A stretch of DNA of 33,546 nt, from positions 1-33,546 of the forward strand of contig JAEUWP010000267.1 in assembly GCA_018524725.1 (NCBI GenBank), read 5' to 3'. Positions 1 through 32,641 of the stretch are shown here, piece by piece. A program made the translations under genes and the position numbers. How positions within the stretch are numbered: the first letter of the stretch is position 1; each line of letters opens with the position of its first letter. Origin of the DNA: Podaxis mareebaensis. Taxonomy: Eukaryota > Basidiomycota > Agaricomycetes > Agaricales > Agaricaceae. Below the pieces are notes generated by a model. The model made no database searches and had not been told where the DNA came from. It was given only the letters and a program-made list of their open reading frames with translations.

Positions 1-76
1 TCAGCAGAGCAGCACAAGCGGCTCTGCACCATCAACATTCCAAGGACCCTGGACAGGTCCTGGGAGGGGGAGGGAG

Positions 77-2430
77 TTGATGGACACGACTTCAGACCCC
101 ACTCCAACATTTATGAGTCAGCCTGAGCATCAGCAAGGGCACCAAGACCCTCATCATGCCTTACTGTCGACAATACCAATGTTGACGTCTCAACACCCAC
201 AATTCGAGCAATGGCCGAATCAACAATTCAGCCACCCACCATTCAATCCATATCTGCAGGGTTACCCGAACCCTGCATACTACCCTCCACCACTGCCGAC
301 ACTCCATCATCCGACGACAATGCCTTATCATCCATATCATGCATCGCTGCCACCGCCAACTGCACTTCAGTTGGCACACCACCACCATTACCCAACTGTG
401 CTGAGTGAATACACTCAGCAACTACCTCACCCTACACCCTCGACGACAGCCAGGCCGTCAAGAGCCAAAGGCAAACAATGCGCATCAGAGCAAGATTTGC
501 TCCACCAACAATACAAGGAACAGAACTCGGGCCTCGTATCCCGATTATGCGAGGTAGGACTAAATGACCACCTCATCGACATGATTGACCCGTTCGACGA
601 GTTGATCAATCAAGTTCTCAATGAGCTCGTTGAGATTATACAAAATAAAAACATGCACATCAGTGTCCTCGAAGGACGCCTCCACTGCCTCAACGATACA
701 CTCTCCGCTTTACAGCAATCAAGAGAGTATGAGCTCGAGGCCACGATTCATGCGTCTAAAAAGAGGACCTTGTCTGGTTCTCTAACACCTCCCAGTGGAA
801 CCACTCCGACTCCACTACAACAGCAACAACAATCTGTGTCGAGCTCATCAGCTCGACCTAAATCATATGCTTCAGCTGCGAGTAATGCAATGACTCGCAC
901 ATCATCTACATCTTCCAAAGTGAGCACCAGTAGTGCTTGCTCATCATCCTCATCCTCAAAGGCAGGTACACAAACCAAGCTACCACCTTCCACCTCCAAG
1001 AAGGCGAGTCTCCCAGCACTTGCCTAACCACAACCTCTTCCAAGACTAGTGTGCCTAGTACTAGTCAAGAACCAACACCTGTCAAAAAGTCGTTCAAGCG
1101 AAGGTGACAGGAGTCACCCGTCAGGACGACTGATGAGTTGGTCGCCCAAGAACCAGATGTCACACTCATCTATGATGACGTCCCGATGGACAACACCCCA
1201 CTCCCGCTGACGACCACTTCTGAGCAGTCATCGCATATTGAAGAACTACTGTCGGGACCTGGGATTCCAGGTCCCACCTCCCCCACATGCAACTACGGAC
1301 CACTCATTTTGGTCTGTCTCCCCACCAAACTCGAGGACGCTCCTTGAGTTGTCCCTGACTACCTCACACCTGAGGATGTGACGCCCATGTCCTCCAGTGA
1401 GGAAGAAGATGCGGCTGAAGACTTCAAACCCAAGAAGGGTAAGAAGAAGGCCCCTCAATTGTCGACCTCTAGGTCGACATCTCGACCAATTATCCATGAC
1501 CTGCCAGGTCATAATGGCATTATTCCGTCCATGTGGGGACTATGGCAACACAGCCAAGTCCATAGTCGCGAACGTGACAACAGCATGCAGAACATGTTAT
1601 CACAGTGAGTTCATTACTCGTGACAAACCAATACCGTGTTTGCTGGAGCCACTGCCACCATCACCGCAATGATGGAATACAAAGGCTGGGAGTTTGAAAT
1701 CCCGGCCACTCATCCAGTTTATAAGGCAGCCCGTCGTGGACTGCCTATGACACCCCGTGAAGTAGAGAAGCTGATCAAGCTTCTCAATAATCATCATGCC
1801 AAAGCTGAGCATCGAGCTGAGGCACACCACCTCCTGACTGAGCTATACAAAATAGCTCAGCACACGGAGGAAGAGCACTACGATGACGCAATGATCTTCC
1901 TGTTGTGCCATAGTGGCTTCCACCCGGACACACACCCATCTGGAATAACCACTGAAATAAGGGAAGAGCACCAACTGTTGTGAGCGTATGAACAAGCTCG
2001 CATCTCAAATCCCAAAAATCAGACCCAGGGCATGGGTTTCACCCAGCCCACAGGAGCCGGCCTCTTCAATATCGACCATCTTGGTCGATATCTTCTTACT
2101 CATAGCCGCCCGGGGTCCAACAACCCTGTTAATGGTATCTTGTTCGAGCATAGACGGCTCATACACCATCGAACCACTTTTGGGTATGGCCTAGCTCGCT
2201 TCTTTGGGCCACCCAAACGTGGTCCTAACCACGCAGGCCAGGTGAGATTCACCCGGCTTTTTGCTGTCCTAGTCACATCACCGCGACTTTATAGAGAGTA
2301 TATTGAGCATTGGAACGCTTGGCATCCTGAACGCCCCTTTGTCCCTCAACTGGGACCAACATGTTACTTCTGATCACTTGACATTGACGATAGTCAAGTG
2401 CCAAACATGAACCTCAACACTGTTGCCAAG

Positions 2431-2435
<5 letters not shown>
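77..2435 (+). pseudogene. 5' part of a long ORF of unknown function carried by the LTR element
   Basis: I do not recognise the product. The first 316 codons (77-1027) are open. The N-terminal ~130 residues are rich in Pro, His and Gln, about residues 135-220 are a helical, probably coiled-coil segment, and the next ~95 are Ser/Thr-rich. The frame then shifts by one somewhere around 955-1027; a small intron beginning GTACAC near 965 could explain this instead. From there to 2435 a single frame continues, interrupted by six stops, all TGA (1105, 1345, 1606, 1621, 1981, 2371). The downstream part has an acidic segment (SSSEEEDAAEDF) and a helical segment (VEKLIKLLNNHHAKAEHRAE). The frame continues directly into 9394 once the LINE is removed. 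Short perfect inverted repeats occur every few tens of bases. The TGA-only pattern suggests CGA decay rather than random drift. Gag-like or accessory protein are possible roles, but nothing here proves either. Confidence 0.55.
2421..2435. repeat. Target-site duplication of LINE copy 1, 3'-side copy
   Basis: TGTTGCCAAGGTTCT matches 9379-9393 (TGTTGCCGAGGTTCT) in 14 of 15 bases. The one difference (A2428 against G9386) is a CpG to CpA transition, so the two copies were probably identical at insertion. The last T may belong to the poly-T tract. Confidence 0.85.
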
Positions 2436-2467
<32 letters not shown>

Positions 2468-2782
2468 ACATTTATTGCAATAGACTAGCTACTACAAACA
2501 GGTGCACGATAGCAGTCCCAAGATCCGAAACCTACAGAAAAGAGAAAGAAATAGGAAGAAAAGAAGAGAAAAAGAAAAAAGGGGGGGTATGGGAGTGAGG
2601 GAGCTAGCTAGAGACAACCAACACAAGATAGAGAGTACAATTAGTCAGACATATGGAGAGAGAAGAGACGAAGATGAAGAGATGAGGGAAGAGGGAGCTA
2701 GCTAGAGGCAAGCGTAATTGAGAGATGAAAAGGAAAAGACCCCTTAGTGAATGTCAGGAGCGCCATGTAGAGCCAGCCTCTC
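2435..2782 (-). other. LINE copy 1 3' UTR with polyadenylation signal and poly-A tail
   Basis: On the minus strand the end reads GCAATAAATG then a poly-A run (T at 2435-2461). The AATAAA complement is at 2471-2476. The preceding ~60 bases (GGGACTGCT, GTGCACCTGTTTGTAGTAG) are shared with copies 2, 3 and 4, so this is the family's conserved tail, probably the part recognised by the reverse transcriptase. Between them lies a purine-rich + strand tract (2520-2700) that contains a spurious small ORF. Confidence 0.8.
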
Positions 2783-5629
2783 TCATCGAGTAAGCCGTCG
2801 GGTATTGTAGTCCTCAAAGGTGATTGGTCCTTGTATCTGGTCAGTGAATGAAAAGGCTGCTGGGTTTTCACAGAGGAACGAGATGAGCCAATGGATGTTC
2901 GTGCGAATGCCATATGGCCGGTGGTAGAGGGGACAATGGTGGATGATGTGGTCCCGTGTCTCAAGTTCCTCACCGCAAGGGCAGGAGGTGATGTAGCGCC
3001 CTGGGAAGAAGCGCTGTCTGAAGGCGCCGATTGGTGCGTGGTCGGTTACACATCGGGCGAAGTGCGCGCATAAGTTAGGGTCAGCACCAAGGCTTGAAGA
3101 AAGCCATGTGCCACTGTTGGTGTATTTGGGTTCCAGTGGTTGATCCGTAGAATTGGTAAGGGGAAGCCAGTTGTGGCCTCGATGTTTAGGAACGTTCATC
3201 TTTTGTCTCCAGAGAGCAAGACATTTGGTAGTGTAATGGTTACGAACGTACCCTAGTGAGGTGCGGATGGGAAACCGTGGGTTGTTAGGGATGCGCAACG
3301 ATTTGGCGAGGTTATGCGCTTGGAAATGTACTGACCATTTTTCAGAGGAGGGGACCGACCAGAAGTGGATATTGTTGAGGGGAGAGGAAGACAGCCACTC
3401 TCGAAGAAGAGGGATGATAGCTAAGGCATCCTTGTGAGCACTATGAGGGCCATAATTAAAAAGTAGTTTGGCAGAAGAAATAGAATCAGTGAAGAAACAA
3501 ATAGAAGAACAGCCACGAGAGATGGCAAGAGATATAGAAGAAAAGAGACCGAGACGAATAGCATATGATTCGGAATCAGAAGAAAGTACTTCCCCACAGG
3601 GGCGGACAGATGAGGAAAGAATATCAGAAGCGGAAGACCCGAAAACTAAATATGCAGAAGTGGCAGAAAGCCGAGGATTGAGAGGAACCGAGCCATCAGA
3701 AGAAATGACTAGAGAGACAGGAGAAGAAAAAGAAAAGTCTCTAGCTACATTAAGAGATTGTATATAGCGAGTTTTAATATTGTTATCAGTGGGGGTAGGA
3801 CATTGATGAAAGTGGATTTGAGAGTCAAAATGGTCAACGAGATGCTGGCCTGGTTTGGCACTGGGGTGAAGACGGTTGAACCGATCCGAAACTAATTGGG
3901 CGTCGGACACAAAATCCAGCGCTGTGGACCTGGTTTTTGTAGAGCGTGCATCAAGCGGGTTAATGTCACAAGTGAGGATTTTGAGGGGATGGGAAGTGGG
4001 GAGGGTCTGGAAATGGAGTGAGCATCGTTTGGCGAGCTTGAATAAATGAAGTTGGATGGGGATGAGACCAGCAATAGCCTCAATTCCACCTGTGGGTGTT
4101 GTGCGAAATGCACCGGTGATCCAAAGGGCTGCAGACCGTTGCATTTGTTGGAGTTGTTTGATGAGGCCTTTGTATCGGCCATTACGATTGAACCACAGAC
4201 GGAAACCGTATATGGCTATGGGGACGACACAAGACCTGTAGAGGAGGCGTTTGTGAAGTGGGGAGAGGCCTCGGATGGAGTTGCTGAGAAGGCGCATGCA
4301 CTTGACTGTGGAAAGCGCTTTTGTAGAGTAGTAACGGATGTGTTCTTTGAAAGTAAGTGCCCAATCGAAATAGAATCCCAGATATCTGAGATGACGCTTT
4401 GGGATGAAGATGAGACGACCATCTGTGGGATGATCGACGATGATGTGTGGGTCGGGTTCCGCCCAAGGGCGGTTGGAAAAATGAAAGGCCTCAGTCTTGT
4501 CGTGTTCAAGAACGAGTCCCATCGAGGTTAGTAATTGTTCGCAACTAAGATATACGGAGGCGAGTAAATTACAGTTTGTATGAAAAGAGTCAGATTGAAC
4601 AATAATGAGGCCATCGTCTACAAAAGAAAGTAGTTTACACCGAGCATCGTTTGAGAATTTATGGATGAAAGGTGAAAGATAAAGAGCAGTGAGAATAGGG
4701 GACAGAGCAGATCCTTGGCCTACGCCTACAGAAGCAGGGAAAGGGGGAGAAGTGTCGTTGTTCCAAGAGTACTTAGTAAAATGATTGACTAAATAGTCTG
4801 AGAAGAATGAAACTATGGATGAGTTAAAACCATGTCTTTTGAGAATCTCAATTAAAAGAGAGTGGTTAATAGAAGGAAAGAATTGAGCGACATCAAAAGT
4901 GAGGACACTCGTTTTCAGGTTCTTTTTCCATCCAGTACGGACCATATGGGTGACAAAGACTCCTGCATCTTCAGTGGAACGGTGGATGATGCCCCCGAAT
5001 TGCAAAGGGTGAACCAATTCGAATTGGGTGGATTCGAATTGAAGACGATTAGAGATCATCTTCTCGATAAGTTTACCTAGGGTGTTAAGAAGGACGATTG
5101 GCCGAAACATTTTAGGCATCGAATAATGGGATTTGTTCGGTTTAGGAATAATAACCGAAGTAGACGTTTTGAAATATTCAGGCCATGTGTGGAATTGGAT
5201 ACACGCAGAGGCAAAGGATGCGAAGTTCGACTTGATAACATCATCGGACATGAAGAATTTAATGTGAGCCCATGTAAGATGGTCTGGGCCTGGGGTGGAG
5301 GAGTTGGCGCAAGGTTGAAGAGCATCTGTCAATTCCCTGGATGAGAAAGGGGGCCAGGGTCGCTCGTCTTGTTCAGGAGCGATGTTGGCTGTATTGAGAT
5401 TGACTGGTCTATTAGACGCCGTGTTGTACGTTTCATTGAGCGCCTTCCATAGGTTTTCGGGTTCGTCACATGGTTGTCCTTTGTGAAGGATGGATTGGGA
5501 TGGGGGGAGGTTCCGCTTTTTAACCCATGACATAAGATCCCAAGGTCGTCTTTTTTCCTTTGAGATTTCCAAGATTTTTGCATCAAAGAAGGCTCTTTTT
5601 GCTTTCCTCGTAGTATGTCTGAAGTTGCT
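2783..5629 (-). pseudogene. LINE copy 1 ORF2, reverse transcriptase-RNase H half
   Basis: This is the 3' part of ORF2, open from the amber stop at 5630-5632 to 2783. Counting from the ATG at 5572, reverse transcriptase motif A is TFDVAQFF (D about 227), motif B is GQGSALSP (about 285-292) and catalytic motif C is FVDD (317-320). An RNase H domain follows with SSDGS (D 626), DSESYA (E 668) and FTDS (D 696). The fourth acidic position, normally in an A-D-x-L-A context, reads AHNLA. A CPC-x8-H-x4-C zinc knuckle sits at 864-880. The product copies element RNA into DNA at the nicked target and removes RNA. Sequence upstream of 5572 is in the same frame as the endonuclease half and similar in style to the usual linker, so the two halves were one 1301-codon ORF broken only by the TAG. 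Confidence 0.92.
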
Positions 5630-6676
5630 CTAATTGCGTTTGGTGCGGTGAGCATTAAAGGCATATAAGGCGTCTGAACACTGGTTGTTCCACCAGGGTT
5701 TAGACCGACGACAAATTTTGACTTCTACAGAATTTGCATTCCATTTGTCAGAGACGATATTGAAGATAGAGGATGCGTATGTGTTGACATCATTAGAAGA
5801 TTCAAAATTTGGGGAGAGTGCCTTGAAGCGTAAGGAGCAATTGTATAGAAAAAGAGCTTCTTCTTCAGAATCTCTAGGTATAGTCCGTTTGACAGTGATG
5901 GGAGTGGCAATGGATGACAGCGGAATGTGTGTGAAAAGAGGAACATGATCGGATCGGGATCTCCAATCATGTTGATAGGAATGTGTAGGGGCGGGGAGAT
6001 CCGTCAGAGATACAGCGAAGATGAGATCGATGACTGTGGCTGATTTGTTAGGATCGTCGGGAAAATGCGTAGGGGAATAATTGATCAGGGTGGATCTGGT
6101 AAGTCCGATCGTGTCCATGATGTCACTCAATAAATCAGCTCGTGCAGAGTGATAGGGTGCATTGTGATCCCAGTCGGGAGACCTCGTGTTAAAGTCGCCT
6201 CCTGCATAACGAATGTTGCTAGGGAAGGAGGGGATGCAAGACTCTAAATAGTCTATGGAGGATGAGTCGTTTGTTTTGAAGTAACAATTAAGGAAGTATT
6301 GTTTACTAGGAATAGAAAGGGAGAATATTTGGAAGTCAGGAGAAGAGATTATGTTGGGGTGTATGGTAGGATTAAAAGAATGCATAGACTTGCAAACATA
6401 TGTAAGAACGCGAGGTTTGGAAATGGATTGGTCGTGAAGTAAGAGCCAATCCCTATGAATAGGTGGTCCTTCCATCGGGTCTCCTTCAGAGGCTGATGTG
6501 GACGGAATGTTACGAATGAACCTGAAAGCAGGTTCTTGCAGGCATAAAATGTGAACATCTTTGAGTAATGGGGAATTTAAAAGGAATTCTACAGTGGACC
6601 AGTTCTTTTGTACATTAAATGAACAAATCGAAATGTTAGATAATGAAGCAGTGTTGTTAGGAGAACGTTCAGACAT
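5630..6676 (-). pseudogene. LINE copy 1 ORF2, APE-type endonuclease half
   Basis: This is the N-terminal part of ORF2. I chose the ATG at 6676; an open GTG lies three codons upstream. It encodes an exonuclease-endonuclease-phosphatase domain. Counting from that GTG, the metal-binding Glu is in LQEPAF (E 51), GDFN is at 163-166, TVIDLIF at 217-223 and the catalytic SDH at 245-247, so the usual active-site motifs are present. It nicks the target DNA to prime reverse transcription. It ends at an in-frame TAG (5632-5630). The next codons continue with a basic linker (RKAKRAFFDAKI) typical of the endonuclease-RT junction, so TAG replaces one codon, most likely Trp or Gln. The start lies 56 bases after the ORF1 stop. 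Confidence 0.9.
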
Positions 6677-6731
6677 TGACAGCACGGGCGTTGAAATCAG
6701 ACTTTGCCTTCTTGGTTTTCATTTCTCTGAG

Positions 6732-9290
6732 TCAGTTGATGATCCATTCTTTGTCAAAGCGGTGACGGAAGAATGGGCATTTGTCGCTGTTCACGTGGTG
6801 ATCTTTGGAGCCACATGACAAGCAGTTGAATGAAGTCACATGAGGACATTCAGTGACGTTGGTGGGGGTAGGGGGGCGGGGGTTGGGACCAGGTTTGCCA
6901 CGACAGCAGTACCCATTGCGGCAGTGGTTGTTGGTGTGATGAGGGTCACCACAAATGGCACATCTGGGGTTTCGTGCCTTACACAAGTGAGTGGGGTGTC
7001 CCCACCTCCAGCATCGGTTGCACAAGGGGCTTGCGACCCTCATGCTAGCTCCTCGGAACGTACATACTCTGTTGTCGAAGAGGATGGTGTGATTGATATA
7101 TAATTTGGCCCTCGATGCTGTTTGAGAGTCCCAAAGATCGAAAAAGAGGTTGGCCGAGTCTGAATGAGGTGAAATTCGACAGAATCTGGGTTTACCGACG
7201 ATGTGGTTAACGATATCGGCATAGGGAGAAGCGTTGATGACAGGTTTGATGTCATCGGCGGTATATGGGGTACCGTCCTCCTTCAGGTATGGGAGGTTGG
7301 TTAGTTTGATAAAGGATTTGGACATCGGAAGTGATGGGTTTACTGCATTCCTGATCTCCGGGGTAGCAAAAGCCGACCTATTAGAATCGGAGATGCCTTT
7401 TTTGATAGCAATAAGTTCAGCCTCAGTTGCGACAGAACTAGTATTGAGCCAGAGAGTACGCTCATTCTTCTTCGCCGACTCGACGCGAAGAGGGAGGTTT
7501 TTTTGGTAGAGTTCATTATTACAGCATCGGACTATAAGGTCTAATGATGTAACCATGAGATGAGTGAACGTGTCGTTGAATGGGACAACAACATTCTTGC
7601 GAGATGGGCCTTGTGTGGCCTTTGGTTGGGAGGAGTGAGGGGATGGAGTAGATTTGGGGGCAGGTGATTTGATATCGCCCACGTTACAGAGGAAATTGAT
7701 GATGTCGACTGGTGACATTGAGGGAAATTGATTTTGAAGAGCTGCGTATTTTTGAAGCTCCTCTACCTTAAGTGGCGTCTGGGATGCTGCCTTGGAATAC
7801 GATGTCCTCTGGGTGGAAGGGGACGGTGCACCAGACCTGTACTGAGGTTTGGTGGCTTTATTGATAAGGGGAGGGGTGGAGGAAGGGGGGGAGGGGTGAG
7901 GGAGAGAGGGGGGAGATGGGAGAGTGTCTTTAGGGGGGAAGGCGGACGCCGCAATAGGCTTACGCTGAGTAGGGGCGGCTACTGCTTTACGAGGTGCCCG
8001 GTGATGCTTAACAATGGACCAACTGTTATGGTTAGGGTTTGTCTTGTTGTCCTGACTGGATGGATCAGGAGCAGTAGGGACAGTGGATTGAGGAGGAGGG
8101 GGGGGAGGGAGCATGTCAGCGTCTTCATTAGACTTAGAAGACTCACCTGGTTTGTTAAGATTAGCCGGTGGAAGCTGTGAGAGGGCAATTGCACGTGCAG
8201 TATCCCCTTCGAGTTGCGAATCTGAGCTTTGGGACTGCCCAATAGCATCAGAAGGAGTAAGGAAGGTGACGCTCTGGGACTTCCCAGTAGCATCACCTTT
8301 AAGGGAGGGGGAGGATACTGCCGGTGCTTTTTCAGCCCGGCATTCTTGACGGTGGCCCGTTGACATGGGAGAAGGAGTGGGGGACAGAGTGTGAGCGGGA
8401 GGGAATTGCATGGAGATGGCGTCATAGAGGCGCACAGTGTGGTTATTGAAAGGGACGGATTTGCCCCGGAGTTGCTCAGAATGAGCGATTGTTTGGATTA
8501 GATGGATGAGGGATGAGGTGCCCTCGAAAGTGGAAAAGTCGCCTCCATTGTTAGCCCATGAGGAGAGCCAACTAGAGGTGTAGGAGAGAAGCACAGTCAT
8601 AAGACTTAGCGCTTTGGGATCGGAAGTGGAAGTGACATCAATGTTACCAAATATGTCACATAGAGGGGAATGGATTGCTGACCAATCCATTCCATGGGAC
8701 GCAGGGTCCTCGCCTTGAGGCTGAGAGGCGGTAAGAGGAGAGATTGGGGTGAAGGTAGGGAGAGCTGGGAGGGGGTCGGAAGGTTGAGATTCATCCCAGG
8801 CTGTATTGGGGGTTGGAGGGACAAAGCCATAAGCGGATGCGATGGCTTGAGCAGGGGAAAGTACCCTTTGGGAGGGGGCTATTTTGGGGGAGAGGTCGAT
8901 GTCTTCACGAACCAGCGCGAGGGATTGGGCAATGGATTTAGGGGTAGAAGTGCCTTGGGAATGCTCCTCGACTTCTTCGGCTGACGAGACTGACGCGGCA
9001 TCATCGTCTTCTCTCAGTTTCATGCTCTTCTCAAGTCGATTTGAGAGAGAGTGGTCAGTTGAATAAGAGCGTTTAGCTCCAATAGAGGGGGAGGGTGAGG
9101 GGGGTTTCTTGAGAAAGTCTTCAGAAACCTGGAAGTCGTTGAAGAGAGGGACAGAAGCCTCTCGAGGAAGAGTGGGGTTGGGCGCTATACTGGCGCTTGA
9201 ACGCCGACGACAAGCGATGCCGGAATGAATGCTGCTGGCGGTTTTCTTGAGACCTCCAAAGAGACCACTAGACTCTTTGGTATCTTTCAT
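6732..9290 (-). CDS. LINE copy 1 ORF1, gag-like zinc-knuckle protein
   Basis: This is an intact 852-residue ORF from ATG at 9290 to TGA at 6734-6732. The N-terminal ~500 residues are rich in Pro, Ser and Thr and probably disordered. A conserved globular region follows from about residue 590 to 745. The C-terminus has three CCHC knuckles: CNRCWRWGHPTHLC (757-770), CAICGDPHHTNNHC (777-790) and CLSCGSKDHHVNSDKC (823-838). Proteins of this type bind element RNA and form the retrotransposition particle. Copy 2 has a clear homologue over the last ~150 residues. No stop or frameshift is visible. Several + strand ORFs over 7.7-9.1 kb are shadows of its low-complexity half. Confidence 0.92.
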   Translation of the reverse strand: MKDTKESSGLFGGLKKTASSIHSGIACRRRSSASIAPNPTLPREASVPLFNDFQVSEDFLKKPPSPSPSIGAKRSYSTDHSLSNRLEKSMKLREDDDAASVSSAEEVEEHSQGTSTPKSIAQSLALVREDIDLSPKIAPSQRVLSPAQAIASAYGFVPPTPNTAWDESQPSDPLPALPTFTPISPLTASQPQGEDPASHGMDWSAIHSPLCDIFGNIDVTSTSDPKALSLMTVLLSYTSSWLSSWANNGGDFSTFEGTSSLIHLIQTIAHSEQLRGKSVPFNNHTVRLYDAISMQFPPAHTLSPTPSPMSTGHRQECRAEKAPAVSSPSLKGDATGKSQSVTFLTPSDAIGQSQSSDSQLEGDTARAIALSQLPPANLNKPGESSKSNEDADMLPPPPPPQSTVPTAPDPSSQDNKTNPNHNSWSIVKHHRAPRKAVAAPTQRKPIAASAFPPKDTLPSPPSLPHPSPPSSTPPLINKATKPQYRSGAPSPSTQRTSYSKAASQTPLKVEELQKYAALQNQFPSMSPVDIINFLCNVGDIKSPAPKSTPSPHSSQPKATQGPSRKNVVVPFNDTFTHLMVTSLDLIVRCCNNELYQKNLPLRVESAKKNERTLWLNTSSVATEAELIAIKKGISDSNRSAFATPEIRNAVNPSLPMSKSFIKLTNLPYLKEDGTPYTADDIKPVINASPYADIVNHIVGKPRFCRISPHSDSANLFFDLWDSQTASRAKLYINHTILFDNRVCTFRGASMRVASPLCNRCWRWGHPTHLCKARNPRCAICGDPHHTNNHCRNGYCCRGKPGPNPRPPTPTNVTECPHVTSFNCLSCGSKDHHVNSDKCPFFRHRFDKEWIIN

Positions 9291-9378
9291 AGCTATTTAG
9301 AACAGAAATGTGTATTCCTTGTACTACGAATAACCTGGCCACTGAGATGATTGTGGTGGTTACTGAGAAAGGAAGGTG
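9291..9378 (-). promoter_or_regulatory. LINE copy 1 5' UTR, probable internal promoter
   Basis: Eighty-eight bases lie between the 5' TSD and the ORF1 ATG. Copy 2 has a 59-base equivalent (19728-19786) sharing CCTTCCTTT, CAGTAACCACCAC and GTTATTCGTAGTA. Conservation of so short a leader between diverged copies suggests that it holds the internal promoter LINEs need; promoter activity is inferred. Confidence 0.5.
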
Positions 9379-9393
9379 TGTTGCCGAGGTTCT
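9379..9393. repeat. Target-site duplication of LINE copy 1, 5'-side copy
   Basis: TGTTGCCGAGGTTCT is the partner of 2421-2435. It retains the CpG lost in the other copy and marks where the LTR element's ORF resumes in frame. Confidence 0.85.
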
Positions 9394-9976
9394 CATCCAC
9401 AATGGAGTCGACCTGTCCTGGGTCGACCATGCTTACCTCTTTGGGATCCATTACTTGGATCAATCCTATACTGGTGAACCTAGTCACCAGTCCATGTATC
9501 ATGACTGGGACGACGAACGTATCCATCGTCTCGACCTATATGGACCACCTCCAGCCATCGAGAGATGGGACGGATGGTTCTACCCCAATGACCACGACCT
9601 TCTCAGGTCGTATTTCTTTGAACAATGAGAATTCCTTCGCACCGGGAAGGAAATGCAAGATGACCCTGGCTGGCTAAAGGCTGGGGGCCCTACTCACTTC
9701 CGCCTTCTAAGTAAGTGGGAGTACACCCCACACCTGCTCAAGCCCCCAACCACACCTGCAGTTGATGGGCCCAGCAACTTGACTCTGCCTGTTGCATCTA
9801 GTGAGGCTCAGGTTGAGGATCACCCCTCAACTGAAGCCCGACCGATGGAGGTTGATCGCCCCTCCATTCTTCATCCCGAAAGCAAGTCATCACCCCCCGA
9901 CGCATCTGACGACGATATTGTGTCATCAAACAGCTCCACACCCAGGGCTGGGGGAATTTCATTACCCCCTGCCTAA
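9394..9976 (+). pseudogene. 3' part of the LTR element's long ORF
   Basis: This continues the reading frame interrupted at 2435. The codons run VAEVLIHNGVDLSWVDHAY into a segment rich in aromatic and acidic residues (LFGIHYLDQS, RWDGWFYPNDHD). An in-frame TGA occurs at 9626-9628 and the next stop is a TAA at 9974-9976, which I take as the natural end. The last ~100 residues are rich in Pro, Ser and Asp and probably disordered. Perfect inverted repeats continue (9407-9427, 9470-9491, 9594-9611, 9632-9652, 9812-9831, 9845-9867). The open frame seen upstream to 9308 is LINE sequence and not part of the original gene. Function unknown. Confidence 0.5.
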
Positions 9977-10315
9977 CTTCCTATCGACAACAGGGGAGCG
10001 ACCTAGTCGCTCCGCCATGTAACTACCCTTGTCAAGTCTCACGACTTGATCCCACTCGTATCCTCTTCCAGGCATCACCGCCTGGCCCCTACCATGGTCA
10101 AGTCTCATGACTTGACTTCCTTCACACCTGGCCAAGGGACTTTACCCCTTCGGCCTCACCACTTATTAAAACTGTATCCAAGCGACCTAGTCGTCTCGGC
10201 CATATACCCTATACCCTAAAACTGAGCATCATATTCATCTCGGACCTATACCCTATCATACACGACTATTTATTAATCCTCTTCTCTCTCACACTAAGAG
10301 ACTGTAAAATGGTCT
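9977..10315 (+). other. 3' non-coding region of the LTR element, hairpin-rich
   Basis: No ORF. It holds perfect inverted repeats: GGAGCGAC/GTCGCTCC (9995-10013, loop 3), TCAAGTC/GACTTGA (10032-10049, loop 4), CCAGGC/GCCTGG (10068-10085) and GTCAAGTC/GACTTGAC (10097-10116, loop 4). A second GCGACCTAGTCG copy lies near 10174. The last 120 bases are pyrimidine- and A-rich without clear stems. Confidence 0.6.
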
Positions 10316-10325
10316 GGAGGGGGGG
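10316..10325 (+). promoter_or_regulatory. Polypurine tract (plus-strand primer)
   Basis: GGAGGGGGGG lies two bases before an LTR beginning TGTAAGGG, the position expected for the primer of plus-strand DNA synthesis. It sets the + orientation of the element. Confidence 0.65.
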
Positions 10326-10327
10326 TG

Positions 10328-10568
10328 TGTAAGGGCACGCCCTTACACTTAATTCGAAAATCAATTAACCCATGTCATTGTGTTATATTTTGCTATCAGT
10401 CTTGTTTACCCATCACTCCATCACATGTTTGTATCTACTGTTTATTAGGGCACTTCGGTTGTCGGTGACAACTGACCTTTGCTTGTGCCACATAGTCTCC
10501 CAATAAATGGGTTTGAACTATTTGGCGTGAGTGTGAGGTCTTCTAACCATAAAGCATAAAGCTTTACA
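10328..10568 (+). repeat. 3' LTR of the non-autonomous element
   Basis: A 241-bp block starts TGTAA and ends TTACA (5-bp terminal inverted repeats). It opens with a perfect 8-bp hairpin (TGTAAGGG/CCCTTACA, loop CACG). A nested structure follows, GGCAC/GTGCC (10449-10489) enclosing GTTGTC/GACAAC. AATAAA at 10502-10507 is a good polyadenylation signal. From memory, LTRs of many Agaricomycete retroelements begin this way. Its downstream TSD cannot be checked because the solo LTR begins one base later. Confidence 0.65.
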
Positions 10569-10569
10569 C

Positions 10570-11907
10570 TGGTTCAGAATGAAAACAGTAGTTAGAAATG
10601 CAAAAACAAAGTGTTTTGTGAGAAACAGGGAGTTGTGAAGGAATGGGGGGAGTATGTTATGTGCTTTGTGCTTTCAAGGAACATGAGGTTTTTTATAGAA
10701 TGCTGTCATGAGATGGCCTCTACAATTTTCCTAGTTCAAAGCTGAACTAAGACTGTTTGTTCTAGGGAAGGAGTCTCTCTTGTAGCATCACTACAATTTA
10801 TAAGTACTAAGAAATCACAGTAGTGAGAACCTTTCCTCACTACAACTAGTAATATACTGACTTGTATCGATAAGTCCTTCTGACCATCAGTATGCAGCTG
10901 CAATGTATCTCTAGCTAGTCCTGCTAAGACTATCTCTGACTTCTCAACTTATGGAAACTTCTGGGAACTACTGACTCTTATGTTCTGCTTTTCACTAATA
11001 GGTTGCGTCGACTGAAGAAAACTCCTATAAATGCTTTAACTATCACTTATTAGTTGTCAAATACACAACAACCCTCTAAGCAGAGCTTCAGCAGGAATTC
11101 CCTTGCTTTACCTTGCATCATTGAGGGGATTTTATATTTTAGGCTGAGGAGTGATTACAATCTAATGTTACAATATTCTGACTCAACAAATGATTACATG
11201 TACAAGTACAGAGTCATATAATTTATAATCTACATTATTCTCTGCCCAATAGGATGTTCTGACAGTGAACACATATACATTTCTACTGGACATGTGGACT
11301 GATAAAGTACACATGTATGATATTTATCAGTTTCTGCTGACCAAATCTACTGTATGTGTAACACTATTCATCATTCCTAACTCGATAGTATTATAAACCT
11401 TCATTCCCCATGTTCTGGACTGCTTTGGGTCACCAGTGGTTAATGAGTCACATGGTTGGCATCTTTGTGAGATTAGTGAATCTCATCTACTGAGAGGATG
11501 TGTTGATCCCTTAGTTAGGTAGTCTGTTTTCTGACTCGGATTTTGTCTGCTGAGGTCATAGCTGAACTAAGCCTTTTGATACATAGTGGCAGCTAAGCAT
11601 ACTACTGAATGAGGTAGTCCTTGGTGTTGTTTATGTGATAAAGGATCTTCGCGAGGATGGGATTGGTGGATATTCTTCAGTAATATAGTCCTGACTTCAA
11701 TAAGAGTATTGAGTCAATGGCATATGGATACTTCTAGTTGGTACAGTTTTCCCAATCTAGGTGCTTAGACTAACTACTGGGGAATCCTCATGAGGTACTG
11801 AGGTCACTTCTAGTGTAAGTTCATAGTCTGTTATCTTAGCCACTAAAATTGATTATATTCTAATCCAGTTACTGTTTTCATGACTGAAAACTGTTGCAGC
11901 CATAACA
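10570..11907 (-). repeat. Solo LTR of the second LTR family (reverse orientation)
   Basis: The reverse complement aligns along its length with 31030-32388. Shared landmarks are the start TGTTATGGC, the block CCTAGATTGGGAAAACTGT, GTCATATAATTTATAATCTACA read on this strand, CTTCACAACT near the 3' end and a terminus CTGAAYCA. Length is 1338 bp against 1359 bp. No gag or pol follows it on either side, so it is a solo LTR, presumably left by LTR-LTR recombination. The flanking 5-mers (TACAC left, GTGCT right) do not match, so the simple insertion model is not confirmed. Confidence 0.8.
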
Positions 11908-12134
11908 GTGCTACCTCAAGAAGCATGTTGAAAATGATGACACCACATGTCAAAAGTGGGCAAGGTGTTCCAAATGAGCTCTCAAGTTCATTTGCAATCA
12001 ACTTCAGATCGCTCATGAAGAAAAAGAAATGAACATAAAACTTGCTCAGCACCTCCTAGCATGGGTACAACAGCTCTTTTTGATTGGTGTACAAGAACTA
12101 ATGGCAATTGATATAGTGTGTAGAGCAGCCAGAA

Positions 12135-24683: not shown

Positions 24684-25001
24684 TGCACTTAAGGATGGTT
24701 TTTTTTTTTTTTTTTTTTTTTTTAAATTGACATTTATTGCAATAGGCTAGCTACTACAAACAGGTGCATGATAGCAGTCCCAATACCAAATCTAGAAAAG
24801 GAAAGAAAAGAGAGAAGGGAGATGGAAATGAAGTAGATAGGAGCAGTAGAGCTATGCTAAAGAGATGAGAGATGAGAAGAGAGTATGAACTAACTTAACA
24901 AGATGTGAATAGGAGAGAAATGGATCAGAAATTGAAGAGGTGTAGGAGTGGGGAGCTAGCTATGAAATAATGAAGAGAAGGGCCTTTTAGTGAACATCGG
25001 G

Positions 25002-25016
25002 GACTCCATTTCTTGC
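25002..25016. repeat. Target-site duplication of LINE copy 4, 3' side
   Basis: GACTCCATTTCTTGC, identical to 26984-26998. It lies within LINE copy 3, which dates copy 4 as the later insertion. Confidence 0.92.
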
Positions 25017-26983
25017 TTTTTTTTTTTTTTTTTTTTTAAATTGACATTTATTGCAATAGAACTAGCTACTACAAACAGGTGCACAATAGCAGTCCCAATA
25101 TCGAAACTAAAGAAAAGGAAAAGAGAGAAAGAGAAATATGGAAAAAGAGAAGTATGAGAGCAGGTGAAGCTACTCTATATACAGATGAGATGAGAAGAGA
25201 GTAAAAACTAACTTATCAAGATGCGAGTGAAAGAGGAATGGTTTAGAAAGTGAAGAGATGTAGGAGCGTGGAGCTAGCTATGAGACAAGTGAAAATAGAG
25301 GAAATAAAGGTCTTCAGTGTACATCCGGGACTCTGTTTCTTGTAAGTCGCTCTCTACAGTTGAGGCAGCAGGTGGCGAACTCCTCTTGGGTGACGGGTCC
25401 TTGAATCTGGTTGGCGAAGGAAAACACTGCAGGGTTCTGGTCTAAGAACTGGATAACCCAATGAAAGCCATCACAGGCCCCATATGGGTATCGGAAGTGG
25501 GGGCAGGCATCGAGTATGTGGTCTCATGTTTCGAGCAGTTCACTGCAAGGGCAGGAGGTGATGTGGTGCCCAGGGAAAAAGTGCTGTCAGAAAGCGCCAA
25601 TGGGTGTGTGATTGGTGACACAGCACGTGAAGCATGCACATAAGTTGGGGTTTTTCCCCAGGGGCAAATTGAGCCAAGTGCCACCTTTGGAGTATTTGGG
25701 CTGGAGGGGTTTCTCCACACTGTCAACTAGGGGGAGCCACAAGTGGCCGCAATGGGTGGGGTCATTCATTAATTGATGCCACAACAATAGGCATTTCTGG
25801 GTGTAGTGGTTTCAAACGAACCCCAGGGATGTGCAGAAGGGCTGGCATCATGGGTTAGGGAGGTGGAGGGACTTGGCTAGGGTATGCACTTTGTGGCGAA
25901 TAGACCAGTTGGCAGAGGAAGGGATTGACCAGAAGTGGACATGGTTTAGAGGAGAGGAAGAGAGCCAGGAGTGAAGGAGGGGGGTGACTGCGATGGAGTC
26001 CGGGTGTGCACTGTGGGGTCTGTAAGAAAACAGAAGTTTAGTGGAGGAAATCAAGTCTGTAAAAACTATAATTGAAGAAATGTTGAGAGGTTGGGAGAAG
26101 GAAATGGAGGAGAAAAGTCCAAGATGGAGTGCATATGATTCAGAATCAGAAGAAGTTACTTCCCTGCAGGGGTGAATAGCAGAGGAGAGAATGTCTGTAT
26201 CAGAAGAATTGAAAACAAGAAAAGCAGAAGTGGCAGAAAGAGAAGGATTAGAGGGGACTGAACCATCTGTAGCTAAGAGGAGGGAGACAGGGGAGGAAAA
26301 AGCGAGGTCGCAGGCACAGGAGGCATTGGCAATGTGGAGGGCCATGGCTCCTTCTTTCAAAGGGTCAGGGCACTCGATAAATTTGATTTGGTCGCTAAAC
26401 AAGTCCAGCAGGTGCTGACCAGGTTTGGCATTAGGATGAAGGCACTGGAACTGGTCCATGACCAGTTGAGCATCTGAGATGAAATCGAGTGCTGATGAGT
26501 GCTGTTTGGTTTGGCACGTGTCTATGGGGTTGATGTTGTGCATGAGGAGTTTGAGAGGGTGGGATGAGGGGAGGGTGTGAAAATGGATGGAGCATCGTTT
26601 AGCAAGTTTGAAGAGGTGGAGTTGGATGGGGATAAGGCCTGCAATAGCCTCAACTCTGCCAGTGGGGGTGGTATGAAACGTGCCAGTAATCCAGAGGGCA
26701 GCTTGTCGTTGCATGCACTGTAATGACTTAATAAGTCTGCAGTATCATGCATTGTGATTGAACCAGAGGTGGAATCCATACATGGCAATGGGGACGACAC
26801 AGGATCAATAAAGGAGTCGTTTATGGAGGGGGGATAGTCTGCATATGGAGTTACTGAGCATGTGCATGCATTGGACAGTGGAGAGAGCCTTGGTTGAGTA
26901 GAACTGGACGTGTTCTTTAAAGGAAAGGCTTCTGTCAAACCAGAAGCCAAGGTAGTGGAGGAAGGGTTTAGGGTGGATGGTGA
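25017..26983 (-). mobile_element. 5'-truncated LINE (copy 4) nested in copy 3
   Basis: Poly-T at 25017-25037, the family 3' tail, then ORF2 C-terminal coding sequence on the minus strand, ending abruptly at 26983 against a perfect 15-bp TSD. Its ORF2 portion starts downstream of RT motif C. Very similar to copy 3, so both belong to one subfamily distinct from copy 1. Confidence 0.9.
25314..26983 (-). pseudogene. LINE copy 4 ORF2 remnant (RT thumb, RNase H, zinc knuckle)
   Basis: Aligns with copy 1 ORF2 from about residue 405 to the end. RNase H motifs are visible: ATDGSVPSNP, SDSESYALHL and FTDL. The position of the fourth catalytic residue reads VHTLAK, again His as in copy 1. The frame is broken by shifts near 25790-25850 and 26700-26820. 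Near the C-terminus the codon at 25349-25347 (minus strand) is CGA, where copy 3 has TGA. Many Arg positions of copy 1 are Cys, His or Gln here, in line with CpG loss. Not functional. Confidence 0.82.
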
Positions 26984-28815: not shown

Positions 28816-29631
28816 ATGAACCCTCCCAGCACACCCCACTGCAATCGCATCTACAATGCCCTAGTCCATGAACTTGGACTCCCTAACACCTCCTGCCACA
28901 CAACCCAAGATATGGGTATACCAGCTGAAGACACCATATGCTACCACAATGAAGCCTTTGCCAACTGTCGCCTTCCTGGGCATGCATCTCTATTCTCACA
29001 AGACTGGCCAATGCCTGGACCACTATTCTACTCAACTGACTGTATGATGACTGAAATACTCTGCATTGCTTGGGAGAACGCTCCCTTCACTCACATCTTC
29101 GATCCCAATGGGTTATACGTCCAAACCATCCACAATAACTTCGACTCCACCTGGGCACACAGTTGGAAGATGATCCCTTATGCTGGAGAGCTGATCGTAT
29201 TCCTTCACCCCTACATGATGTATCCACCCGAGGTCGTCCCACATATTATCAAATACAAAGTCACTCACAGACTCTACTTCTGAGAAGTAGAAGTCTATCA
29301 CCTTGATCCTAACTCTGACAAGCCTCTGGCCATCCCCCCCCACAGATCACAGCTTCCTCCACTTTGCAGCATCGACTCCAATGTCCCCAGCATCGACGAC
29401 TCAGAACCCACTGCAGATCCTCCCCCTTATCCACCTCCCTATGTCACCACAGATATTTCCTCATCATCATTGTCATTGTCATCGCCGCACCACAGCATGA
29501 TTGTCATTCACAAGTCAGATTCCTCTGACTCGCCCCTCATAGGGAACTTCACCGTTCCCAGCTCTGCCTCATCACCAGACTCTTACTCCTCTGATTCCAG
29601 TGGACAACTTCATCCTGATATGGACTTGTAA
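28816..29631 (+). pseudogene. Unknown ORF similar in style to the hairpin-rich LTR element's ORF
   Basis: One frame runs 272 codons to a TAA at 29629-29631, with a single in-frame TGA at 29281-29283. I do not recognise the product. It has a mixed globular region rich in aromatics (HASLFSQDWPMPGPLFY, APFTHIFDPNGLYV) followed after the TGA by a Ser/Pro/Asp-rich, probably disordered tail. The ORF at 77-9976 shares this layout, including a TGA directly after Tyr-Phe and a tail of the same composition, but I could not align the two. The TGA lies in a 9-bp perfect inverted repeat (TCTACTTCT/AGAAGTAGA, 29273-29291). Other stems are at 29513-29530 (7 bp) and 28863-28880 (6 bp). The start codon is uncertain because LINE copy 3 ends five bases upstream and may have removed the true 5' end. 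Confidence 0.5.
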
Positions 29632-30243
29632 TATAACTAGTAAACAGTTTCCTTTCTACCTCATTACAGACTATTCATCTAGTATTCCTGTATCTCGCTT
29701 GAACTCTGTCTTGTACTATTTCCTTAGTTAGTTAGTTTCTTTTCTTGTCTAGTCTCATCCCTGTTCTATTCTCATCCCACTCTGCTCCATAGTTTCACTT
29801 CTATTGACTCTTGGACTCATAGCACTACTTTGTCATAGTTACCTTCTTAGGACATTAGAAGTAAAGCTTAAATAGCCACCCATGTACTGGAAGCACAAGC
29901 TTCCTATATTCTCAAATCTCAAGTTATTGTTTACCTTTAACTTCTGATTGATGTTAGCTCATGATCAGTGTGGTAGTAAACATCTTATTGGTCATACTCT
30001 CGACTGATAAGCATTCGACCTCCTGAGTGTACTTAACTGGACACTTGCCTCGCCACCTTCTTATCATGATCCTTCTTGCTAGATCCTAGCACCTCTGCAA
30101 ACCATCTAGTGAGATAGCTGCCCCCTAGCAAAGCTTAGGTGACCAGTGATAAGGACCAACCTAACATTATATAGGAAGCTTCCCTCAGTGACCCTCATGT
30201 CTGTTGTAAGTGACTAGAAGACGCACAATATCTCTAGGGTGTA
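29632..30243 (+). other. Non-coding sequence downstream of the unknown ORF
   Basis: No ORF above 60 codons. T- and C-rich in its first half. Short inverted repeats include GGAAGC/GCTTCC at 29889-29904 and the palindrome GGAAGCTTCC near 30176. No polypurine tract followed by a TG...CA LTR could be identified, although GGGTGTAATGGGCCC at 30239 has some resemblance to an LTR start. Confidence 0.35.
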
Positions 30244-30785
30244 ATGGGCCCTACTCCCATCATGGACCTAGCCAACACTAGACCAGATCTGCGAGTAGAC
30301 TGCAAATCTATGTCAGGAGATATGCCCAAACATGGTGATCAGGATAGCAACCTAGATCTTAAAGGCCCACAGATTGGAGAGAGGAAACTGCTCCATCTAA
30401 AGCAATTTAGACAGATTGTAGGAACCTTGGTGAACCCGGAAAACAACTGCAACCTACTCCAGACCAATAACAAAGGGCAGAGCCAATCCTTGAATGCCTG
30501 GATAACTGGCCATTATCTTGGACAACAAGTAAAGGAGAAAAGCACCCACATCAAGCACTAGACCAGCTGTGGGAGACAATAGCCATGCTGTGGAATAACT
30601 CTAAGCCATGTACAAAGAAAGAGTATCTGATTGAAGGGTAACTGGAAAGGAAAGATAGACCCCTAGCACAAGTGTGGATTTTGCACACTACAGGAATCAT
30701 CCACCATCCAGAAGCACAACTGGATTCAAGAAAGATTAAAGCCATACTGCAAGAAATCCCAGAGATACTCGGAATCAAGATAGGA
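30244..30785 (+). pseudogene. Unidentified coding relic
   Basis: An open stretch of 105 codons (to 30561) is followed, after a one-base shift, by a second protein-like stretch (DQLWETIAMLWNNSKPCTKK, then AQVWILHTTGIIHHPE and ILQEIPEILGIKIGF). Hydrophobic spacing suggests real former coding sequence, perhaps retroelement gag, but no diagnostic motif is present. From 30786 to 31029 I see nothing definable. Confidence 0.28.
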
Positions 30786-31029
30786 TTTTGTCCAAGCTAG
30801 TCAGCAACCACCCCACAACACCTTCATCACCACAGATTCTTCAATGCCACCCTGTTCTCAGGAAAAGGAAAGCAGCGAGCTCAGACTGAGCCCAATCCTG
30901 ACCAATCTTCCTCCTCACAATCCAGAAAATCCAAACAACCCTGACAACACCAACTGACCCCGCCCTCAGATCCCTCACTTCGGCTTCATACCTGCTCACC
31001 AGAGCAAACCCCATATTCACCACCCCCAC

Positions 31030-32388
31030 TGTTATGGCCTAAACTGTTTTCAGTCATGAAAGTGGTACTTAGATTATAATACAATCAAGTTTTACAGCTA
31101 GAATAACAGACTATGAACCCACACTAGAAAAGGCCACAGCACCTCACAAGGGTTAACCCAGTAGTATAATCTAGGCACCTAGATTGGGAAAACTGTACTG
31201 ACTAGATGCATCCATAAGCCATTGATTCAGTGTTATCACTGAAGTCAGGATTATATTATTGAGAACTATTCATCAATAACAACCTTGCAAGGATCCTTTC
31301 TTGTGCAAGTGACACTAGGGATTATCTCATTCAGTAGTATGCTTAGCTGCCACTATGTACCAGAGACCTAGCTCAGCTATGACCTCAGCAGATGGAGTCC
31401 GAGTCAGAAGAGAGAACTACCTAACTAAGGGATCAACGCATCATCTCAGTAGAAGTGATTCATTGACCTCGTGAGATGCCAAAACCATGCGACTCATTAA
31501 CAGTCAGTGATTCAAATCAGCTTAGCAAGAAATGCAGAGAATGAAGATTCATAATACTATTGAGTCAGAAATGGCAAAGGGTATTACACATGCAGTAGAC
31601 TTGGTCAGTGAAAGCTGGTAAATATCATACACGTGTACTTTATCAGTCCATGTGTCCAGTAGAAACACATATGTGTCCCCTATCAGAACACCCTATTGGG
31701 CAGAGAACAATGTAGATTATAAATTATATGACTCTGTACTTGTACATGTAATCCTTTATTGAGTCAGAACATTGTAACACTAGATTGTAATCATTCCCCA
31801 ACTGATAATATAAAAACCCCTCAGTGACACAAGGTGAAGCAAGGGAATTCCTGCCGAGCTTCACTTAGAGGGTTGTTGTATATTTGACAATCATTGAAGT
31901 GATAGTTAAGCATTTATAGGAGTTTTCTTCAGTCAATGTGACCTACTAGCAAGAGCCAGAACAAAGACCCAGTAGTTCCCTCAGAAGTTTCCACAAGTTG
32001 AGAATCAGAAGTTAGCCTTAGCAGGGTTAACTAGGAGTACATTGCAGCTGTGTATCACCAGTCAGAGCACTCATCGATACGAGTCGGTATATTTCTGGTA
32101 GTAGTGAGGGATTGCTCTTGCTACCTTCGGTTCTTTGGTACTTGTGTATCATAGTGATGCTACATCAGAGACTTGTCAATTTAAGAACAAACAGTCTAGT
32201 TCAGTCTTGAACTAGGGAATCATTGAGACCACCTTGCGACAGCATCCAGAAGTCCTCACATCAAGTGAAGATAGCACCAAGCACATACACATTCCCCACT
32301 CCTTCACAACTCTTTTACTTACCTTTTTACATTCCTAGCGAATGTTTCAATCTTGCATCACTTTATTATCCCTTTCATTTCTGAATCA
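31030..32388 (+). repeat. 5' LTR of the Gypsy-like element
   Basis: Starts TGTTATGG and ends CTGAATCA. Limits are set by comparison with the solo copy, since similarity stops at both ends. It contains TATAAATTATATG near 31718, a plausible TATA region, with the same motif in the solo LTR. Confidence 0.75.
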
Positions 32389-32641
32389 GAGTCCCCCATG
32401 AACTTGCTAGGGTGTGGCTTTTGGTAATACTATTTTATATTTCACTTCACATTATCACCTTTATCTGTTATATTCTATAGTAATCCATTTGCTGCCCCAT
32501 CATCTGGAGCCCACCATGAGGGGGAGTTTCAGTTTTGATTGAGGTAGTAGTGTGATACTTTTTATTTTCTTTTATTTTCGTTTTATTTCCAGTCTAGCGA
32601 CCATACATCTGTACAGGGGCAACCCATACTACAGAGCAAAG
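32389..32641 (+). other. Leader between LTR and gag
   Basis: Primer-binding-site position. I see no convincing match starting TGG directly after the LTR; the nearest is TGGAGCCCACC near 32504. T-rich at 32440-32480 and 32555-32590. The gag frame may already be open from about 32582. Confidence 0.4.

Follow-up and report, generated by a model that had tools for sequence, protein, structure and literature searches.

Why is a fungal retroelement filled from end to end with short perfect hairpins? The question is raised by a 33,546-nt stretch of the Podaxis mareebaensis genome (contig JAEUWP010000267.1; hereafter, the window), whose first 10,568 positions hold part of a long terminal repeat (LTR) element interrupted by a long interspersed nuclear element (LINE). 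An initial annotation had listed 16 perfect inverted repeats in the LTR element and had offered several possible roles for them, including a structured genome and palindrome-generating copying errors. The element is a Ty3/gypsy LTR retrotransposon of ~11 kb, of which the window holds the 3′ third only. A DNA search of the genome (36.95 Mb, 429 contigs) gave at least 20 matching places, the window included, and 18 stretches were fetched as element copies, with subfamilies named without a tree. The comparison of these copies suggests that the genome of the element was probably selected to fold into many short local hairpins, that is, genome-scale ordered RNA structure (GORS) in an LTR retrotransposon.

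The hairpins were profiled as perfect stems of at least 8 bp with loops of up to 15 nt. All 16 listed stems were present, those at 1460-1479 and 10327-10348 each one bp longer than claimed, and 14 of them had loops of 6 nt or fewer, in keeping with the description of loops as mostly 1-6 bases. At least eight further stems of 7 bp had been claimed as well, and nine of exactly 7 bp were found, one of which (4-27) precedes the start given for the element. Chance had been expected to yield about one stem of 8 bp or more; dinucleotide shuffles gave about 0.7, against the 16 observed. Window positions 1-2434 had 12 such stems (shuffled mean 0.55, maximum 2) and positions 9300-10568 had four (mean 0.15, maximum 1; 20 shuffles each). 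The LINE at 2470-9299, used as an internal control, had three in 6.8 kb (mean 0.7, maximum 2; 10 shuffles), a small excess, and it contains two perfect stems at least 10 bp long. In the rest of the window, three of four stretches had two stems each (2.3, 1.3 and 1.2 in shuffles) and the fourth, 29000-33546, had five (1.5 in shuffles).

Other copies were also dense in stems. Copy L010 had 53 stems over 9.4 kb (5.6 per kb), and the counts in seven 10-kb loci were 47, 53, 45, 51, 45, 46 and 32 (the last in the divergent copy L023), with stems in most 500-bp bins. Non-element stretches of at least 600 bases, taken from the window and the surroundings of the copies (18 rows), had 36 stems in 62 kb, or ~0.6 per kb. 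Among them, the stretch adjoining the element in L013 (1-3469) had 2.0 stems per kb (seven in total, 8-12 bp long), and a LINE-containing stretch at L026 was likewise somewhat stem-rich. Codon-preserving shuffles, which the initial annotation had proposed as a check, were done on L010 (CpG observed/expected ratio 0.97) rather than on the broken window copy, and the excess held: gag-pol had 25 stems (shuffled mean 1.16, maximum 6) and the stretch of the third open reading frame (ORF3) at 5439-8678 had 23 (mean 1.08, maximum 4; 200 shuffles each). Perfect 7-bp stems were 17-22 times the codon-shuffle mean. Allowing loops of up to 80 nt yielded just a few more stems, and regular spacing was not found in three copies. 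The excess ran throughout all scanned parts, coding and non-coding, so the hairpins characterise the element as a whole and are not due to chance, as had been claimed.

We then compared thirty integrase-centred loci of ~3.2 kb (the best 30 of 150 matches) from three other Ty3 families of the genome. One family had no stem of 8 bp or more in six of six loci; a second had 0, 2, 0 and 2 in four loci (expected 0.1-0.4); and a third, large and AT-rich (among L028-L056), had 0-5 in 20 loci (expected 0.2-1.5), a mild excess. The focal element has about 18 over the same length. Dense hairpins are not general to the Ty3 elements there, being absent in one family and weak in two. An artefact of composition, coding or alignment could be suspected, given that the sense strand is A/C-rich and most copies are CpG-decayed. 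This reading is refuted by the dinucleotide and codon shuffles, which fall far below the observed counts, by the stem-free family, and by the CpG-intact copies L010 and L057, which are stem-rich; we give it next to no probability.

Individual stems proved less stable than their density. The window stems were perfect in 109 of the 232 covered copy-by-site cells of other copies (range 2/14 to 15/15). The possibility raised at the outset, that other copies lack the stems at aligned positions, was borne out for many single stems, which were broken in single copies; the stems as a set were kept beyond the identity expectation in all 18 comparisons: L018 (89.6% identity), for instance, kept 28 of 47 stems with 7.1 expected, and L023 (80.5% identity) kept 11 of 42 with 1.0 expected. 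The sister copy L057 is 65% identical in DNA and 72% identical in amino-acid sequence across 1085 well-aligned codons; it had 24 stems in 3.9 kb (6.1 per kb), a density similar to that of L010. Only 2 of 22 L010 stems were matched at the same site in L057, as judged from this one sister copy by a matching rule of our own, and one of the two matched by overlap only, not by homologous pairing. One further site, CTTTGACAT, was common to other A copies. In our own reading, silent changes alone make some stems, such as CATCGTTT-tac-AAACGATG in His-Arg-Phe-Thr-Asn-Asp. Stem density is held while positions change.

To seek evidence of selection on pairing, we focused on variants other than CpG decay, which accounted for most between-copy differences at stems. 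Raw arm divergence was about half the non-stem rate, possibly through ascertainment, and an outgroup-ascertained test was used instead. Stems were defined in the outgroup copies L023-L025 and variants were scored within the main subfamily, so that stem finding does not bias the variants. Non-CpG variants shared by at least two main-subfamily copies were taken as old, from the active period, and singletons as mostly post-insertion. The test covered 106 sites with stems of at least 7 bp in 14 main-subfamily copies, with at least six copies per column, a star alignment to one copy and a heuristic CpG filter. By Fisher tests that treat columns as independent, shared variants were ~3.5-fold depleted in arms (16 of 1309 columns) relative to flanks (127 of 2984; odds 0.28, p 5e-8), and in loops they occurred at the flank rate (20 of 454 columns). 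Third codon positions told the same, with 9 of 415 columns in arms, 14 of 149 in loops and 202 of 2195 elsewhere (odds 0.22, p 7e-8). Matching by codon position gave 16 observed against 53.3 expected in arms, and 20 against 18.7 in loops. The same direction was seen at codon positions 1 and 2 and in the 64 arm columns outside coding sequence, not significantly on their own. As a negative control, columns that form stems only in the sister copy showed no constraint (11 of 363 against 74 of 2259).

The depletion faded among recent changes. Singletons were slightly depleted in arms of stems of at least 7 bp (odds 0.72, p 0.03) and not significantly so for 8-bp stems (odds 0.88, p 0.58), and CpG-type changes were slightly more frequent in arms (odds 1.27, p 0.008). 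Since the arms were depleted in old variants and weakly or not at all in recent and CpG-type ones, pairing appears to have been under selection while the element was mobile; the pattern is the one expected if selection on pairing acted during activity and ceased afterwards. A neutral process could also confine strong depletion to pre-insertion variants, if paired bases were shielded from damage during reverse transcription and mutated less, so that stems persist without benefit. Such shielding leaves unexplained both why perfect 7-bp stems exceed the codon-shuffle mean 17-22-fold and why the sister copy has stems at new sites, and the arms were depleted in transversions at least as much as in transitions (odds 0.17 and 0.30, with two arm columns carrying shared transversions), and we consider it very unlikely. 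Some apparent compensatory changes, for the most part CpG decay affecting both arms, were left uncounted, and the fixed differences between subfamilies (279 of 1033 pair columns scorable, one paired double change) were too few to use.

The loops carried a different signature. The copies were scanned for words replaced by their own reverse complement, which gave 16 centres with 3-nt words. Inverted windows of at least 11 nt were found at four centres, all of them stem loops (TCC/GGA, CAACA/TGTTG, CCC/GGG and TCT/AGA). Inversions thus occurred at 4 of 113 stem sites and at 12 of ~9330 other positions (p 3e-5, the denominator being approximate). Further candidates were set aside: the scan flags at 1359 and 2896 were not inversions, a GCAA/CTGC case (5751) was one base off, and inverted 14-nt windows at the stem centres 4484, 6466 and 9221 and at the off-stem position 340 consisted of transitions only, resembling CpG decay. 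Loop inversion is described as a signature of template switching in the available text of a study of template-switch hairpins (PMC8794818).

This raises the possibility that the hairpins are a mutational by-product, in which template switching by reverse transcriptase (RT) or DNA polymerase perfects near-palindromes to no benefit. The four exact inversions, all inside stems, speak for such a process, as does the tolerance of mismatch types with no clear wobble preference. However, among 44 coding stems compared between L010 (21) and L057 (23), nearly all present in one copy only, both arms differed in 37, and no overwritten arm was evident: the mean smaller and larger numbers of differences were 2.18 and 3.57, against 2.04 and 3.48 at random places. 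Amino-acid change was not raised in the arms either (0.240 and 0.289 against 0.288). Arm differences as at random places, with no extra amino-acid change, indicate that switching is not the chief maker of stems. Unbiased arm-to-arm correction, we reason, should not reduce the number of changed columns, yet the arms showed the depletion described above; and the shared non-CpG changes of the main subfamily included no paired double change. We therefore regard a purely mutational origin as unlikely. The copying errors proposed in the initial annotation did leave traces, in the four inverted loops, and are best seen as a side process. The element shares loop inversions within perfect stems with the template-switch hairpins described in that text, and differs in that inversions are rare here and the arms appear conserved by selection, not overwritten.

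Folding energies were profiled as the minimum folding energy difference (MFED) from a shuffled baseline. MFED was 33.5% in L010, 24.4% in the CpG-decayed L018 and 30.4% in L057; the lowest fragment of L010 had 16.6%. With codon-preserving shuffles, the sense strand of three pieces gave 27.9-36.5%. By the same measure the RNA phages MS2 and Qbeta reached 26.8% and 31.1%. The other Ty3 families ranked as they did by stem count, with -2.2 and -4.6% in the stem-free family, 2.7% in the second, and 12.6 and 6.2% in the AT-rich one, from one or two loci per family and 10 shuffles per fragment. To distinguish the strands, we compared 350-nt fragments with six codon-preserving shuffles. The sense strand exceeded the antisense strand in gag-pol (30.3% against 24.2%; difference 6.3 +/- 2.8 points) and in ORF3 (36.5% against 20.3%; 18.2 +/- 3.4 points). 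The differences in MS2, Qbeta and PP7 were 3.3, 0.1 and 1.2, none exceeding 1.1 standard errors. Going by these folding predictions, sense RNA is likely favoured as the folding strand, chiefly via ORF3.

Alternatively, pairing may act in DNA, as hairpins of single-stranded cDNA or cruciforms with a part in strand transfer, in protection or in chromatin targeting. Each end of the LTR is a hairpin with the terminus included, and at the LTR end (10548-10568) the loop takes seven sequences across 18 covered rows around an invariant core. The high folding excess of the antisense strand and the lack of a clear G-U preference would also fit pairing in DNA. The sense strand exceeded the antisense in all three pieces, however, and no common stem or loop motif was seen by inspection. 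Loops peak at 3-6 nt, and in L010 five out of 53 have a length of 0 or 1 nt. On this evidence, pairing mainly in DNA seems improbable.

Several results weigh against selected folding of the sense RNA. In the sister copy, the strand difference was within noise (27.9% against 24.8%; 3.1 +/- 1.9 points), and the antisense strand is also strongly structured (20-25%). The sense strand of the LINE shows an MFED of 11.9% as well. The constraint tests assume independent columns, and singletons shared in a slight arm depletion. Non-CpG compensatory double changes were few: of 19 cells with both bases changed, 14 were paired, compared with 14 of 35 in slid controls (p 0.024), and the cells share ancestry. 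In 60-nt windows the gains were similar on both strands of the element, a comparison that is uninformative because MS2 also shows similar strands. G-U was not preferred over A-C in stems, with 22 against 26 shared and 52 against 67 singleton changes. One-mismatch stems in L010 were enriched 5.9-fold for G-U and 3.6-fold for A-C, and those in the sister copy leaned to A-C (4.2 for G-U against 5.8). In E. coli rRNA, one-G-U stems were enriched 2.2-fold and one-A-C stems 0.9-fold, so that folding of sense RNA alone predicts more wobble than was seen. As a disproof of RNA structure the missing preference is a weak test, for four RNA phages lack it too (2.5 against 2.7), perhaps because both of their strands are single-stranded at times, as RNA and cDNA would be here by analogy. 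Separately, among 9-bp stems with one inner mismatch in L009, L010, L016, L018, L019, L022 and L023, A-A outnumbered T-T on the sense strand by 96 to 16, a six-fold imbalance that exceeds what base composition suggests; A-A was not in excess in L057.

Selection for a folded genome nevertheless remains our preferred reading. Of the roles offered initially, that of a structured genome fits best, with a high folding-energy excess, constrained arms, free loops, and density kept despite turnover. Folding would chiefly concern the sense genomic RNA and bring a general benefit, not one function per hairpin. A compact, protected RNA would pack into virus-like particles and resist cleavage or recognition, and self-folding may aid the packaging or intracellular survival of an element of such unusual length. 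Rare template switching at hairpins would invert loops and may mend some stems. Packaging or compaction is a possible main benefit, which we put forward tentatively. More doubtful, in our estimate, is a specific version in which the 11-kb RNA would be kept, for packaging or protection, as a self-folded genome in the manner of a phage; the particle proteins (Gag or the ORF3 product) would read its dozens of dispersed hairpins by shape rather than sequence, and individual hairpins could be gained and lost at a constant density.

The architecture of the element was established from the other copies. The window copy lies at the contig start and lacks the 5′ LTR, gag and pol, everything 5′ of ORF3 being missing; the length of about 3.6 kb first given thus applies to a fragment, and the sum of the L013 and L009 coordinates gives ~11.1 kb. 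The order across the 18 stretches is LTR, gag, protease, RT, RNase H, integrase, ORF3 and LTR. In L010, Pfam matches follow in the order RVP_2, RVT_1, RT_RNaseH, Integrase_H2C2 and rve, together with an SH3_Tf2-1 match well above the Pfam cut-off. A chromodomain match (PF00385) at the integrase end has E 1e-4 and 22.6 bits in L010 (cut-off 25.1) and 20.5 bits in L057, and gag appears, in our own reading of the sequence, to carry a zinc knuckle. L013 was the only one of 18 loci with both LTRs in self-comparison, the window showing one, and the only copy in which the first ~1.7 kb (5′ LTR and start of gag) was visible. Its LTRs are 241 bp long and 97% identical, with TG...CA ends, and CAGTA, a 5-base target duplication, lies on both sides of the element. 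The named pol relatives (best 120 of 1811) belong to mushroom-forming basidiomycetes, no relatives of the element were found among viral contigs, and an Rfam scan of the window gave no match. The protease-RT-RNase H-integrase order, the Tf2-1-like SH3, an end resembling a chromodomain below the Pfam cut-off, and the LTRs and target duplication are shared with fungal Ty3/gypsy chromodomain elements; the element differs from them in its ~11 kb length, its dense hairpins and its extra open reading frame of ~1,000 codons 3′ of pol.

That frame, ORF3, spans the stop-to-stop frames 5439-7778 and 7779-8678 in L010. Its C-terminal 299 amino acids have a 51% match to a single hypothetical protein of Agaricus bisporus. 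At the protein level, relatives of pol or ORF3 exist in A. bisporus, Agrocybe, Leucocoprinus and Phanerochaete. The N-terminal piece had zero homologues at E 1e-3 among 7972 scored candidates, and ORF3 had no convincing Pfam match (Prominin, E 0.0013, fell below the cut-off). The predicted fold of the C-terminal part had a mean predicted local distance difference test score of 42 and was not used. Within the window, ORF3 is split by the LINE, which is missing from other copies (e.g., L009-L012) and whose 14-base target duplication, with one difference, was read directly at 2423-2436 and 9380-9393. Beyond the element, 10981-11910 and 31027-31963 are inverted copies ~19-20 kb apart and 77-87% alike in pieces, and 24703-25283 holds LINE 3′ tails in tandem (318-bp unit, 1.8 copies, poly-T).

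Table 1 Features of the element in the window; fractions refer to other copies covered at the site.
Feature	Position	Strand	Remarks
ORF3, first part	77..2373	+	From ORF listing; interrupted by stop codons in the window copy
Hairpin, 9 bp, loop 5	255..277	+	Perfect in 2/11
Hairpin, 8 bp, loop 5	355..375	+	Perfect in 8/13
Hairpin, 9 bp, loop 4	399..420	+	Perfect in 2/14
Hairpin, 8 bp, loop 4	838..857	+	Perfect in 2/14
Hairpin, 9 bp, loop 4	1254..1275	+	Perfect in 7/14; one unpaired in other 7
Hairpin, 9 bp, loop 2	1460..1479	+	Inner 8 bp perfect in 7/15
Hairpin, 8 bp, loop 1	1496..1512	+	Perfect in 5/15
Hairpin, 8 bp, loop 14	1538..1567	+	Perfect in 8/15
Hairpin, 8 bp, loop 5	1765..1785	+	Perfect in 15/15
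Hairpin, 9 bp, loop 5	1838..1860	+	Perfect in 8/15; one unpaired in other 7
Hairpin, 10 bp, loop 3	2069..2091	+	Perfect in 4/15; loop TCT, which reads AGA in L022, L023, L024
Hairpin, 8 bp, loop 10	2375..2400	+	Perfect in 12/16
LINE, reverse orientation, inside element	2423..9393	-	Endonuclease and reverse transcriptase ORFs (Pfam RVT_1 and Exo_endo_phos_2); poly-T start
ORF3, continuation and end	9394..9976	+	Joined directly to 1-2434 in other copies
Hairpin, 8 bp, loop 6	9470..9491	+	Perfect in 13/16
Hairpin, 8 bp, loop 3, 3′ non-coding	9995..10013	+	Perfect in 5/14
Hairpin, 8 bp, loop 4, 3′ non-coding	10097..10116	+	Perfect in 3/14; one unpaired in 9
Purine run 5′ of 3′ LTR	10316..10325	+	Putative polypurine tract position
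Hairpin, LTR start, 10 bp, loop 2	10327..10348	+	Inner 9 bp perfect in 8/16
3′ LTR, 241 bp, TGTAAGGG...GCTTTACA	10328..10568	+	Boundaries taken from L013
Hairpin, LTR end, loop 5 nt	10548..10568	+	Core TAAAGC/GCTTTA identical in 18 covered rows of 19

The closest described parallel is the GORS of coronaviruses, which in the available text of PMC7642675 is genome-wide, with poorly conserved pair positions and less variable paired sites. Each of these properties was found in the element: energy below shuffles, genome-wide spread, poor conservation of pair positions and less variable paired sites. Both systems have stem-loops throughout coding sequence with a folding-energy excess over shuffles, and in both the property is kept while pair positions shift. 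In that text SARS-CoV-2 has an MFED of about 15% and the highest value given is 23.4%; the element has 24-34%, at the same fragment length but with different shuffling, step and shuffle number. The element differs in being a fungal LTR retrotransposon, which passes through DNA, and in its predominance of perfect short hairpins. Single-stranded RNA phages (MS2, Qbeta, PP7 and AP205) share the high MFED, as measured in MS2 and Qbeta, L010 being level with Qbeta and above MS2, and differ in having 0.5-2.0 perfect stems of at least 8 bp per kb, against 5.6 in L010 and 6.1 in L057. No report of such element-wide structure in an LTR retrotransposon was found among the best open-access literature matches, most subscription papers lying outside this scope. 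A 2016 review, in its available text, describes Ty3 RNA structure as uncharacterised and a Ty1 RNA model as available (PMC4974528).

Selected whole-genome RNA folding has been discussed for RNA viruses, with shielding from recognition by the cell as one idea (available text of PMC7642675). Judging from its family, the element presumably has no infection stage and so would face no animal-type immune system; it could thus separate packaging and stability from immune shielding as purposes of genome-wide folding. Natural controls are available in the other Ty3 families of the same genome, of which one is stem-free in six loci. Together with the kept density, the loop inversions provide a record of stem gain and loss in coding sequence.

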